DNA of 40,874 bases from Bifidobacteriaceae bacterium. GTDB taxonomy: Bacteria; Actinomycetota; Actinomycetes; Actinomycetales; WQXJ01. A model generated the notes under the pieces. It saw only the letters and a program-made list of their open reading frames with translations, was not told the origin of the DNA and made no database searches. Both the position numbers and the translations under genes were made by a program. The stretch lies in contig JAISSX010000002.1 of NCBI GenBank assembly GCA_031272885.1, positions 1 through 40,874 of the forward strand. The letters are read 5' to 3'. This document shows positions 7,650 to 33,941 of the stretch, in pieces (the first letter of the stretch is position 1; each line of letters begins with the position of its first letter).

Positions 7650-8459
7650 GTGGTGCAGTTTGCCTACGTCATCGCCGGTTCGGAGGCCACCGGGGGTGCC
7701 GGCCTCCAAGTTGATCTGAAGACGTTCCAACAACTGGGCGTCTACGGCATCGGCACCATCACTTGCATCGTCTCGTTCGATCCGAAGAACGGTTGGGGCC
7801 ACCGCTTTGTGCCGGTCGATCCCCAGGTGATTGCGGACCAGTTCGAGGCCGCCACCGCCTCGCAGGACCTGGATACGGTCAAGGTCGGCATGCTGGGCAC
7901 CCCGGCCACCATCGACGTGGTGGCCAAGGCCCTCGCCTCCCAGCCCTGGCGCAACGTGGTGGTTGACCCGGTGCTGATCTGCAAGGGCCAAGAACCCGGC
8001 GCTGCCCTCGACACCGACACCGCCCTCAAAGAGAAGGTGTTACCGCTGGCCACCGTGGTGACACCGAACAACTTCGAGGCCCGGGCGCTGTCCGGGTTGG
8101 CGTCCCTCGAAACGATCGATGACCTGGCCGAGGCCGGCCGGTTGATCCTGGCCCGCGGCCCCAAGGCCGTGGTGGTCAAGGGCGGTATCGACTTCCCAGG
8201 GCCCGATGCCATTGACGTGCTGGTACAGGCGTCGCCCGCTGGCGGGCAGCCCACAGTGCAGGTCTTCTCGGCCCCCAAGATCGGCCAAGAACGGGTGTCT
8301 GGCGCCGGTTGCACCTTCGCCGCCGCCATCACCGCCGAACTGGCCAAGGGTTCTACCCTGCCCGATGCCGTGCAGGTTGCCAAGGATCTGGTCACCCGCG
8401 GCATACAACACCGCGTCCCCGGCCACACGCCGTTCACGACCGTCTGGCAAGGCGCCTGA
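7650..8459 (+). CDS. Pyridoxal kinase / hydroxymethylpyrimidine (phosphate) kinase, ThiD-PdxK family
   Basis: 269 residues from GTG 7650, with AAAGAGGGG 10 nt upstream; the second codon is also GTG. It is a ribokinase-fold vitamin kinase: N-terminal AGSEATGGAGLQVDLKTF substrate loop, GMLGTP, VVDPVLICKG, VTPNNFEA, VVVKGG and the anion-hole motif SGAGCTFAAAI near residue 225. The GVYGIGTITCIVSFDP segment resembles Firmicute PdxK proteins that phosphorylate pyridoxal and related vitamin B6 forms and are often annotated ThiD; no thi genes are nearby, so B6 salvage is more likely than thiamine synthesis (inference). It follows pgi by 36 bp. The stop codon lies in the loop of a perfect 15-bp hairpin. 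Confidence 0.88.
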   Translation: MVQFAYVIAGSEATGGAGLQVDLKTFQQLGVYGIGTITCIVSFDPKNGWGHRFVPVDPQVIADQFEAATASQDLDTVKVGMLGTPATIDVVAKALASQPWRNVVVDPVLICKGQEPGAALDTDTALKEKVLPLATVVTPNNFEARALSGLASLETIDDLAEAGRLILARGPKAVVVKGGIDFPGPDAIDVLVQASPAGGQPTVQVFSAPKIGQERVSGAGCTFAAAITAELAKGSTLPDAVQVAKDLVTRGIQHRVPGHTPFTTVWQGA

Positions 8460-8475
8460 CGGCGCCTTGCCAGAC
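8442..8475 (+). terminator. Perfect 15-bp hairpin enclosing the kinase stop codon
   Basis: GTCTGGCAAGGCGCC, loop TGAC, then the exact complement. The stop TGA is in the loop. There is no U-tract, so termination would not be classical; the left arm is also part of a direct repeat seen again at 8639-8657. Confidence 0.5.
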
Positions 8476-8657
8476 TGGTCGAACCGCGATGCTGGCTAGC
8501 CGCGTCTCCTACGTCGCGCTCCGCGCTCCTCGTCGACACGGTTTGGCAGGGGGCATAGCCCCTTCTGCCAAACCGTGTCCCACCATGCTGGCTAGCCGCG
8601 TCTCCTACGTCGCGCTCCGCGCTCCTCGTCGACACGGGTGGCAAGGCGCCTGACGGC
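8445..8657. repeat. Compound repeat cluster between the vitamin kinase gene and thpR
   Basis: A 19-bp direct repeat (TGGCAAGGCGCCTGACGGC) bounds the cluster at 8445-8463 and 8639-8657. Inside are two identical 53-bp direct repeats at 8489-8541 and 8585-8637 (beginning ATGCTGGCTAGCCGCG) separated by a strong stem-loop. The intergenic space 8460-8671 is almost wholly made of these repeats. No transposase is present. It looks like a small non-autonomous repeat element or nested REP-type insertion; the family is not recognised. Confidence 0.85.
8535..8579. repeat. Strong inverted repeat inside the cluster
   Basis: GACACGGTTTGGCAG (8535-8549) is exactly complementary to 8565-8579, with a further GGGG/CCCC pairing and a CATAG loop. 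The outer arm overlaps the end of the first 53-bp repeat. Confidence 0.85.
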
Positions 8658-8671
8658 CGCTGGCGCCTGAA

Positions 8672-9223
8672 TTAGAGGGCGAGGAGGGGGGCCGAGGCCA
8701 GTTCCTCGTAGCGGGAGTGGCCGGCCGGCCCGGCCCCCAGGCGCGATTCCAGCAGCACGATGGCGTCCGCTGTCCACTCGGGACCCTCGTAGTCCGCTAG
8801 CTGGCGCAAGGCGGCCTTGACGTTGGGGTGATTGGCCCAGCGGGAGATGGTCAGGTGGGGCACGGGAAAGTCCGGCCCGCCCCCCGGCCGGGCGTTGGCG
8901 GGCGCCAGTGCGGCCATCAGTTCGGTGACCGGGCCCGTGTCTCCGGCCAAGCCGATCCAGGCCACCTTGTCCCGGAAGGTGCCACAGCCGGCCAGACGCA
9001 ACGTCGCCGGCGCCGATACGGCGGCGGCGTGGGCCAGCCGCTCCACCTGGCTGTCCAGGGCGTCATCGGGCACGTCGCCGTAGAAGGCCAACGTGAGGTG
9101 CCAGTTCTGGGCCGGCTGCCACGGGTTCCGCCGGCCCTGTGGCCCGTCGGTGAAGCGGGACAAGGACCGGGCCAGGTTATCCAGCACGTATTCGGGCGGC
9201 ACTATCGCCGCGAACAGCCGCAT
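8672..9223 (-). CDS. thpR: RNA 2',3'-cyclic phosphodiesterase (2'-5' RNA ligase family)
   Basis: 183 residues. It starts MRLFAAIVPP, typical for the family, and has the two catalytic HxTx motifs of the 2H phosphoesterase fold: HLTL with His42 and HLTI with His123. Length fits bacterial ThpR (about 180 residues). These enzymes hydrolyse 2',3'-cyclic phosphates to 2'-phosphates and can ligate tRNA halves in vitro; the physiological substrate is unclear. The gene stands alone; TAGGTT ends 6 nt before the ATG, suggesting a leaderless transcript. The 3' end abuts the repeat cluster at 8445-8657. Confidence 0.93.
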   Translation of the reverse strand: MRLFAAIVPPEYVLDNLARSLSRFTDGPQGRRNPWQPAQNWHLTLAFYGDVPDDALDSQVERLAHAAAVSAPATLRLAGCGTFRDKVAWIGLAGDTGPVTELMAALAPANARPGGGPDFPVPHLTISRWANHPNVKAALRQLADYEGPEWTADAIVLLESRLGAGPAGHSRYEELASAPLLAL

Positions 9224-22452: not shown

Positions 22453-22472
22453 CCGCGGGCGTCTGCCCGCGG
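22453..22472 (-). promoter_or_regulatory. GC-rich hairpin at the riboswitch exit (possible expression platform)
   Basis: An 8-bp stem (CCGCGGGC with GCCCGCGG, 4-nt loop) begins directly after the cobalamin aptamer and before the nrdD leader. There is no U-tract, so if it is the expression platform it would act by structure or Rho rather than as an intrinsic terminator. Confidence 0.4.
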
Positions 22473-22672
22473 CAGCCGGCAGGTCTTCGGACTTGTGGGC
22501 TCGCTGGTAACCCAGCACCTACCTGGCCACGGCTTCCCAGGTTGTTCACCCAGTGCCCGTGTGTGGCCGTCGTTCCCACTTACCGCTGCGGGGCAGTCCC
22601 GGATTTGCACCGGGTTCCCTTGCGGACCGCTGCCCGATGGCGCCCGGTTGGCACCGCCTGGCAGGCCGGCCC
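22473..22672 (-). ncRNA. Cobalamin (B12) riboswitch upstream of nrdDG
   Basis: Read on the minus strand it holds the class-defining blocks in order: GCGGTGCC near the 5' side, GGGAACCCGGTGCAAATCC then GGGACTGCCCCGC, a variable arm region with CACTGGG and CCTGGGAAGCC, and the 3' B12 box AGTCCGAAGACCTGCC (22478-22494) closing with GCCGGC. The aptamer ends about 145 nt before the nrdD ATG. Cobalamin binding normally turns such leaders off, so nrdDG would be reduced when B12 is available. Confidence 0.93.
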
Positions 22673-33886: not shown

Positions 33887-33941
33887 GGGTTACGGGTTAC
33901 TCGGAACCGTCCCCTGTAACCCGTAACCCGGAACCGTCCCC
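33887..33941. repeat. Inverted repeat with GGAACCGTCCCC direct repeats
   Basis: GGGTTACGGGTTAC (33887-33900) is exactly complementary to 33916-33929; CGGAACCGTCCCC occurs in the loop (33902-33914) and again at 33929-33941. It follows the REP-like copy and fills the rest of the gap between xseB and the DsbA-like gene. It could also act as a two-way terminator. Confidence 0.8.

Follow-up and report, generated by a model that had tools for sequence, protein, structure and literature searches.

A thiD-like gene followed by tandem hairpin units

The window, i.e., the whole 40,874-nucleotide stretch of DNA analyzed here, belongs to a 2.95-Mb draft genome of a Bifidobacteriaceae bacterium assembled in 81 contigs. 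A block of repeats was located at positions 8442–8657, at and behind the end of a thiD-like kinase gene. Since the gene after thiD, which is LigT-like (PF02834), lies on the opposite strand, the repeats sit between convergent genes. The features of the site are listed below. E denotes the core repeat, T the end of the target gene, T′ its inverted copy, and R1 a sequence-only model built from 12 E copies, 11 of which came from the same genome.

7650..8459, + strand: thiD-like kinase gene, the putative target of the insertions (open reading frame; Phos_pyr_kin PF08543, E-value 9.4e-63)
8442..8459, + strand: T copy 1, the coding sequence end in use, GTC TGG CAA GGC GCC TGA
8461..8475, + strand: T′, the inverted copy of the thiD coding end, which forms the 3′ arm of the first hairpin
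8484..8541, + strand: E copy A, a conserved ATGCTGGC.. head followed by an imperfect hairpin with its foot at 8500–8506/8535–8541 (R1, 64.8 bits; foot covariation)
8541..8558, + strand: T copy 2, the apparently older, displaced coding end, GTT TGG CAG GGG GCA TAG (VWQGA*)
8559..8579, + strand: T′ of copy 2, on the 3′ side of the long hairpin (3′ arm 8565–8579)
8580..8637, + strand: E copy B, foot at 8596–8602/8631–8637 (R1, 68.0 bits)
8639..8657, + strand: T copy 3, probably the native coding end moved downstream, with the original intergenic DNA after it

The block consists of two tandem units and a third copy of the thiD end. In each unit, a copy of the thiD end is followed by its own inverted copy, with which it forms a hairpin (8442–8475 and 8535–8579), and then by E. 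The first hairpin is a perfect one of 15 bp (arms 8442–8456/8461–8475), and its loop TGAC includes the thiD stop codon TGA (8457–8459); the arms of the long hairpin lie at 8535–8549/8565–8579. The segment 8400–8700 was predicted to fold with a z-score of −6.2, and none of 100 dinucleotide shuffles folded as well. Copies 1 and 3 of the thiD end are identical over 19 bp, four of them 3′ of the stop codon (TGGCAAGGCGCCTGACGGC at 8445–8463 and 8639–8657), and the coding part of the third copy is TGG CAA GGC GCC TGA (8639–8653). Copy 2 is synonymous with copy 1 and resembles the end of the gene in a relative (genome G001, locus L081). E copies A and B are identical over their last 53 bp (8489–8541 and 8585–8637), and the surrounding 67-bp stretch is 91% identical.

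All the elements described in the first-pass annotation were recovered, namely the hairpin around the thiD stop codon, the two 19-bp repeats, the two identical 53-bp repeats, and the long hairpin. Their interpretation as a symmetric element of 213 bp did not hold: the block is made of two tandem units and a remnant, and only a core of ~53–58 bp is common between loci. The 19-bp repeats, which had been taken for the boundaries of this element, are really copies of the last codons of thiD and vary by locus as the hairpin arms do. A further, synonymous copy of the thiD end inside the middle hairpin (T copy 2, 8541–8558) was absent from that reading. Scanning of the window with the Rfam covariance models gave no family above its curated score for the E block; the sole Rfam match in the window was an ordinary cobalamin riboswitch on the − strand (22461–22652, 89.6 bits).

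Distribution and structure of the E repeat

The core 27-mer, searched with up to three mismatches, had eight matches in the genome and its reversed control none. The DNA of the block matched 11 places in its own genome, one in G001, and none in the other 17 of the 19 genomes. R1 yielded 35 matches in the own genome at an E-value of ≤1, 31 at ≤0.004, and 29 at ≤0.001; as 11 of the 12 model sequences came from this genome, 18 of the 29 matches were new. According to R1, E is present in 10 of the 18 genomes of the family and in four of its six genera. In the order-wide run, performed with stricter filters, E was found in 11 of 248 genomes at an E-value of ≤1e-4, nine within the family and two outside it. 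The latter two were rejected, as the match in G169 falls in a coding frame by our own reading and that in G182 is weak; within the order, E is essentially confined to the family. The suggestion that the block belongs to a non-autonomous dispersed repeat was borne out by these copies, which lie at many other gene ends in its own genome and in relatives; the unique occurrence without copies in relatives that would have refuted it was not what was found.

E was mostly found in the sense orientation, either 12–49 nt 3′ of stop codons or directly 3′ of tRNA genes. Sense frames ending 12–49 nt before E are present at L023, L024, L028, L036, L038, L041, L044, L161, L163, L166, L168, L170, L171, and L178, and the downstream gene at such loci is often convergent. 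E follows tRNA genes of the same orientation at L025, L029, and L046, where the tRNAs were identified, and at L165, L177, and L185, where they were recognized by eye. At L183, L048, L167, L181, and L040, the frame upstream of E runs antisense or is not clear; the remaining E loci had no upstream frame passing the filter of the script. About a dozen copies in the own genome (at C16, C17b, C24, C34, C32, C59, C18, and C37) form a “long” subfamily, which is embedded in a larger repeat, lacks the target-derived hairpin, and has some inverted pairs spanning ~300 bp. Near an inverted pair of E at L010 (C16, 1880–2000), a CRISPR-like direct repeat CCGGACAACCCGGGGCGATTCAACGCCAGGGAC was seen. Another repeat family with a period of ~42 bp, GGAGAGACTTCCGGTAGTTCTGG in both orientations, is present at L005 (1694–2039) and L011 (1600–1860).

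The structure of E was examined by counting base pairs in 44 distinct aligned rows, from which L180, L048, one short-ended row, duplicates, L047, L184, and L049 were left out. The foot pair core3:end4 is formed in 44 of 44 copies (C-G in 23, T-A in 21), up-4:dn4 in 43 of 44 (GC in 23, CG in 20), and up-2:dn2 in 41 of 44 with all four Watson–Crick types (GC 35, CG 3, AT 2, TA 1). For each of these three pairs, none of 5000 shuffles, which ignore the relatedness of the copies, was as good. A C·A mismatch between the foot pairs is kept in 40 of 44 copies, and RNAalifold with 12 copies gave the same six foot pairs. Meanwhile, the inner stem is variable, with 9 bp (GGTCAGCGC/GCGCTGACC) in the genus g6, 6 bp (GACCGC/GCGGTC) at C16, and 4 bp in the window. 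The case for the structure rests on covariation, since single E copies mostly fold no better than shuffles, with one copy, from C16, as the exception. Judging from the covarying foot pairs, E forms an imperfect, REP-like hairpin with a conserved C·A mismatch. An attC-like site was also considered and rejected: compared with the consensus of attC sites, the conserved GTT..AAC of E has the wrong direction and varies to GTC..GAC.

Copies of gene ends at occupied sites and their absence from empty ones

The hairpin in front of E is built from the end of the gene itself. A hairpin with a score of at least 12 and a gap of at most 10 nt precedes E at 19 of 50 sites, compared with none of 355 control places taken from these loci; lowering the score threshold to 9 gives 30 of 50 and 2 of 355. 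It should be noted that the hairpin counts may be off by one because of L169, which lies at a contig edge. The hairpin arm at C22 has 29 exact pairs, begins inside the tRNA gene, and covers 17 nt of it. Inspection of 30 of the 46 tRNA genes revealed an exact arm of at least 10 nt starting inside the tRNA at only two, C22 and L056. At L056, E-like hairpins are arrayed in tandem together with repeated tRNA ends; the exact arm detected at this locus is another one, possibly a chance match. The contigs of L056 (C71, 7522–9188) and L047 (C79, 15502–17096) both terminate in tandem arrays, where direct and inverted copies of a tRNA gene 3′ end (anticodon TAC, read by eye) surround small hairpins GTGTCGAGGAGCGCAGCGACGAGCAC. 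In the genus g6, the hairpins preceding E are alike and resemble standard terminators; as they resemble each other, they are not freshly copied targets.

Direct repeats with a score of at least 11 that start 0–3 nt behind the foot of E were present at 7 of 49 sites (L023, L024, L026, L036, L040, L044, and L170, with L169 excluded as a contig-edge artefact) and at 2 of 355 control places; L023 and L026 belong to a single tandem array as two of its units. The window fits this pattern and is uncounted, as the scan covered 100 nt upstream of each E. The direct copies range from 11 to more than 35 nt, and the full pattern of T, T′, E, and a direct copy (T2) is clear at a minority of the loci.

The nearest named relative by ThiD sequence is the Bifidobacteriaceae MAG Md513_bin16 (87% identity, L081); judging from the isolate codes, we take MAGs such as this one to be of termite-gut origin. 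The thiD site at L081 and in G001 carries one unit: the gene end GTC TGG CAA GGG GCA TAG, an inverted copy, E, and then ACTGGCAGGACGCCTAA, which corresponds to a displaced old end. The common ancestor of the source genome and G001 probably had one unit already, and the window would then have gained the second. Neither a hairpin nor E was found behind thiD in eight other MAGs of the family (L082–L088 and L091, the last of which extends only ~50 bases past the gene). Inspection by eye likewise showed no gene-end hairpin at 12 other loci of the acetyltransferase, at the dihydroorotate dehydrogenase gene of 14 other genomes, or at 13 other loci of the tRNA, except that two of the latter, which by our own reading face a convergent tRNA, were not counted. 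R1 detected no E in the 40 loci of this kind given to it.

These comparisons bear on the explanation that E behaves as an ordinary REP and inserts beside existing transcription terminators, so that the hairpins are the genes' own and the direct repeats result from later tandem slippage. The REPs of other bacteria, as far as they are treated in the main text of PMC3733652, lie mostly downstream of genes. The terminator-like hairpins of g6 and the tandem arrays at C66, C52, and G002:C152 agree with this explanation, which nevertheless appears unlikely to us: for four genes, the relatives lacking E also lack the hairpin at these ends, and the hairpin arms extend into mature tRNA (C22, C29) and into coding sequence including the stop codon. 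Moreover, no T-run follows the hairpin, and no terminator-like site was detected on the + strand at 8300–8800.

The two copies of a gene end were compared codon by codon. At L044 (C50), both ends encode ARRVIVYGLDL*, and all eight nucleotide differences between them are synonymous (P = 2e-5 for eight random changes and 0.0065 for four). Copies 1 and 2 in the window differ by six nucleotides in five codons, again all synonymous, which was reached in none of 200,000 trials for six changes and with P = 0.0067 for three. At other loci, one of the four changed codons is non-synonymous (L081), the sole difference is non-synonymous (C26 and C66), or TGA became TAA (C40). The codon pattern indicates that at two or more loci both end copies were probably coding after they had parted, and this favors an imported end or an exchange with an empty allele over a simple fresh duplication. 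Such exclusively synonymous differences point to an import of T from another allele instead of local copying, which counts against the insertion proposed below.

An import of this kind is known from phages integrating into tRNA genes or icd, which carry a replacement version of the 3′ end of the gene. In a site-specific replacement by an integrase-like enzyme, a circular or linear donor with a synonymous gene 3′ end would recombine and displace the old end, and both E and T′ would be donor-derived. T and T2 do look like copies of an att core, the direct repeats of gene ends are synonymous-only at C50 and in window copies 1 and 2, and the stretch from the T-loop to the 3′ end of a tRNA occurs as a repeat at C71. 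We regard this replacement as distinctly unlikely in spite of these similarities, as it needs a separate donor for each locus, although E is common to all of them. Copy 1 in the window equals the native copy 3 instead of an imported end. In addition, the att sites of integrative elements are not known to include an inverted copy such as T′.

Proposed insertion of E and its relation to known repeats

We propose, with a probability of roughly 0.55, that E (~53–58 bp) is an undescribed non-autonomous REP-like mobile hairpin of an uncultured Bifidobacteriaceae group, whose insertion duplicates the end of the target gene in direct and inverted form. In the sense orientation, E would enter across staggered nicks in the final codons of a gene or at the 3′ end of a tRNA. 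On the right, fill-in of the stretch T bounded by the nicks would yield the direct copy T2; on the left, T would be folded back and copied into T′, which would then be joined to the 5′ head of E. The enzyme would act in trans. The expected product is gene-T-T′-E-T2, in which the gene end is kept, a hairpin is gained around the stop codon, and the former end is moved downstream. Repeated rounds, or unequal exchange involving alleles with and without the insertion, may account for the tandem array in the window.

Where both copies occur at a locus, T2 starts, by eye, within ~8 nt of the position matching the outer limit of T′, which suggests that one stretch T, perhaps lying between staggered nicks, was the source of both. 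The joint at the 3′ foot of E is sharp and that at its head is looser (0–8 nt); such a combination would fit a process starting at the 3′ end of E. A tentative extension of the proposal, possible rather than likely, is that a tiny hairpin element entering a gene 3′ end makes the direct and inverted target copies through a trans-acting enzyme that works on a snap-back or covalently closed end, possibly with the gene end co-converted from a second allele; this would be a new mode of insertion. If so, the gene end would be rebuilt and capped by a perfect hairpin. In either version of the proposal, a mobile element would enter genes yet spare their product, adding a hairpin at the stop codon. REP-like repeats are widespread in bacteria, and for those that spread without a transposase, the insertion footprints found here, i.e., the direct and inverted gene-end copies along with orthologous sites lacking E for comparison, make a mechanism inferable and testable.

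A further explanation is a non-mobile one, in which repeated local replication errors (template switching, slippage) occur at a hairpin-prone functional RNA or DNA element of gene 3′ ends and are spread by gene conversion and horizontal exchange. Snap-back synthesis accounts well for T′; inverted triplets, GCC-TGAC-GGC, are present in the native end of thiD, and the identity of E copies A and B indicates that conversion or recent duplication acts. We nevertheless hold the non-mobile explanation to be very improbable: E is found behind unrelated genes and tRNAs and is missing from their orthologues, which calls for some kind of transposition.

Candidates for an enzyme mobilizing E were sought among the genes of the family. 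The REP-associated transposase anticipated by the first-pass annotation was not recovered, as Y1_Tnp had no match in the own genome apart from a truncated Y1-like gene start, recognized by eye near E at C22, which is cut by the contig end and has different repeats of its own. Of that early interpretation, the dispersed non-autonomous repeat at gene ends stands, and the symmetric single element and the REP transposase do not. A RAYT was rejected as the partner of E, since Y1 is present in 6 of 18 family genomes, all of one genus, and E lies at one of eight Y1 loci. The gene start at C22 (L080/L046, first ~60 bases, − strand) is RAYT-like, MARTARRGSATGIFHVMLRG, as in the Y1_Tnp protein of L187, and two copies of a different repeat, GTTACGGGGGACGGTTCC, directly precede it. 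The palindrome GGGTTACGGGTTACTCGGAAC/GTCCCCTGTAACCCGTAACCC at 33887–33929 of the window is similar to these repeats; together they are possibly a true RAYT-linked REP family of the source genome. A reverse transcriptase was rejected as well, as RVT_1 is present in 7 of 18 genomes and missing from the E-bearing G002, G004, and G007; no E was found near the reverse transcriptase genes L216, L213, and L211. A stand-alone reverse transcriptase (PF00078) is common to both genomes of the genus (L216, own genome, C39:8704–9321; L213, G001). Among the best 60 ORF pairs of an all-against-all comparison of E loci, no clear recurrent neighbor gene was seen. Most of the pairs were overlapping segments of a single place or came from the orthologous thiD site; they also included L165/L185 (74%), both beside tRNA genes, and a group of similar proteins at L048, L168, and L050.

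E works like a REP or a MITE, without demonstrated membership in a described family. As a small imperfect palindrome that is dispersed, mostly extragenic, and located behind genes, it agrees with the definition of a REP. With the GTAG REPs and BIMEs associated with RAYT (IS200/IS605-like Y1), E shares a short imperfect hairpin in tens of copies behind genes, the occurrence as single, tandem, or inverted-pair copies, a conserved unpaired head, and presumed mobilization in trans. In contrast to them, E has no constant GTAG tag, its head being ATGCTTGC-like in the alignment, and its foot contains the conserved C·A mismatch below a freely changing inner stem. Furthermore, E has neither a complete Y1 gene in its own genome nor a RAYT flanked by its repeats, and it is accompanied by the target-derived hairpin and the direct gene-end copy. 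In the literature searched, we found no report of a REP-like repeat copying its target in both directions, which is no proof of its absence in print.

The CGTC REPs have the end tag CGTC, an 8–9 bp stem starting with AT pairs, a loop of 4–5 nt, and a CCA tail, as described in the main text of Di Nocera et al. 2013 (PMC3733652), where the word “Actinobacteria” does not occur. Compared with this description (PMC3733652), E is likewise REP-like, without a dedicated transposase, and with an invariant CGTC-like block on its 3′ side; however, the block lies inside the hairpin and is not an end tag, and E has no AT-starting stem of 8–9 bp and no CCA tail. MITEs are similar to E in being non-autonomous, in duplicating the target, and in folding, whereas the aligned E copies have no terminal inverted repeats of their own, and the duplication linked to E is long, variable in length, and comes with an inverted copy. 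Integrative elements of tRNA and gene 3′ ends insert at the gene end, displace the old end, and supply a synonymous new one. E shares these three features, but its insertion comprises only ~100 bp, has no integrase, and brings with it an inverted copy of the gene end.
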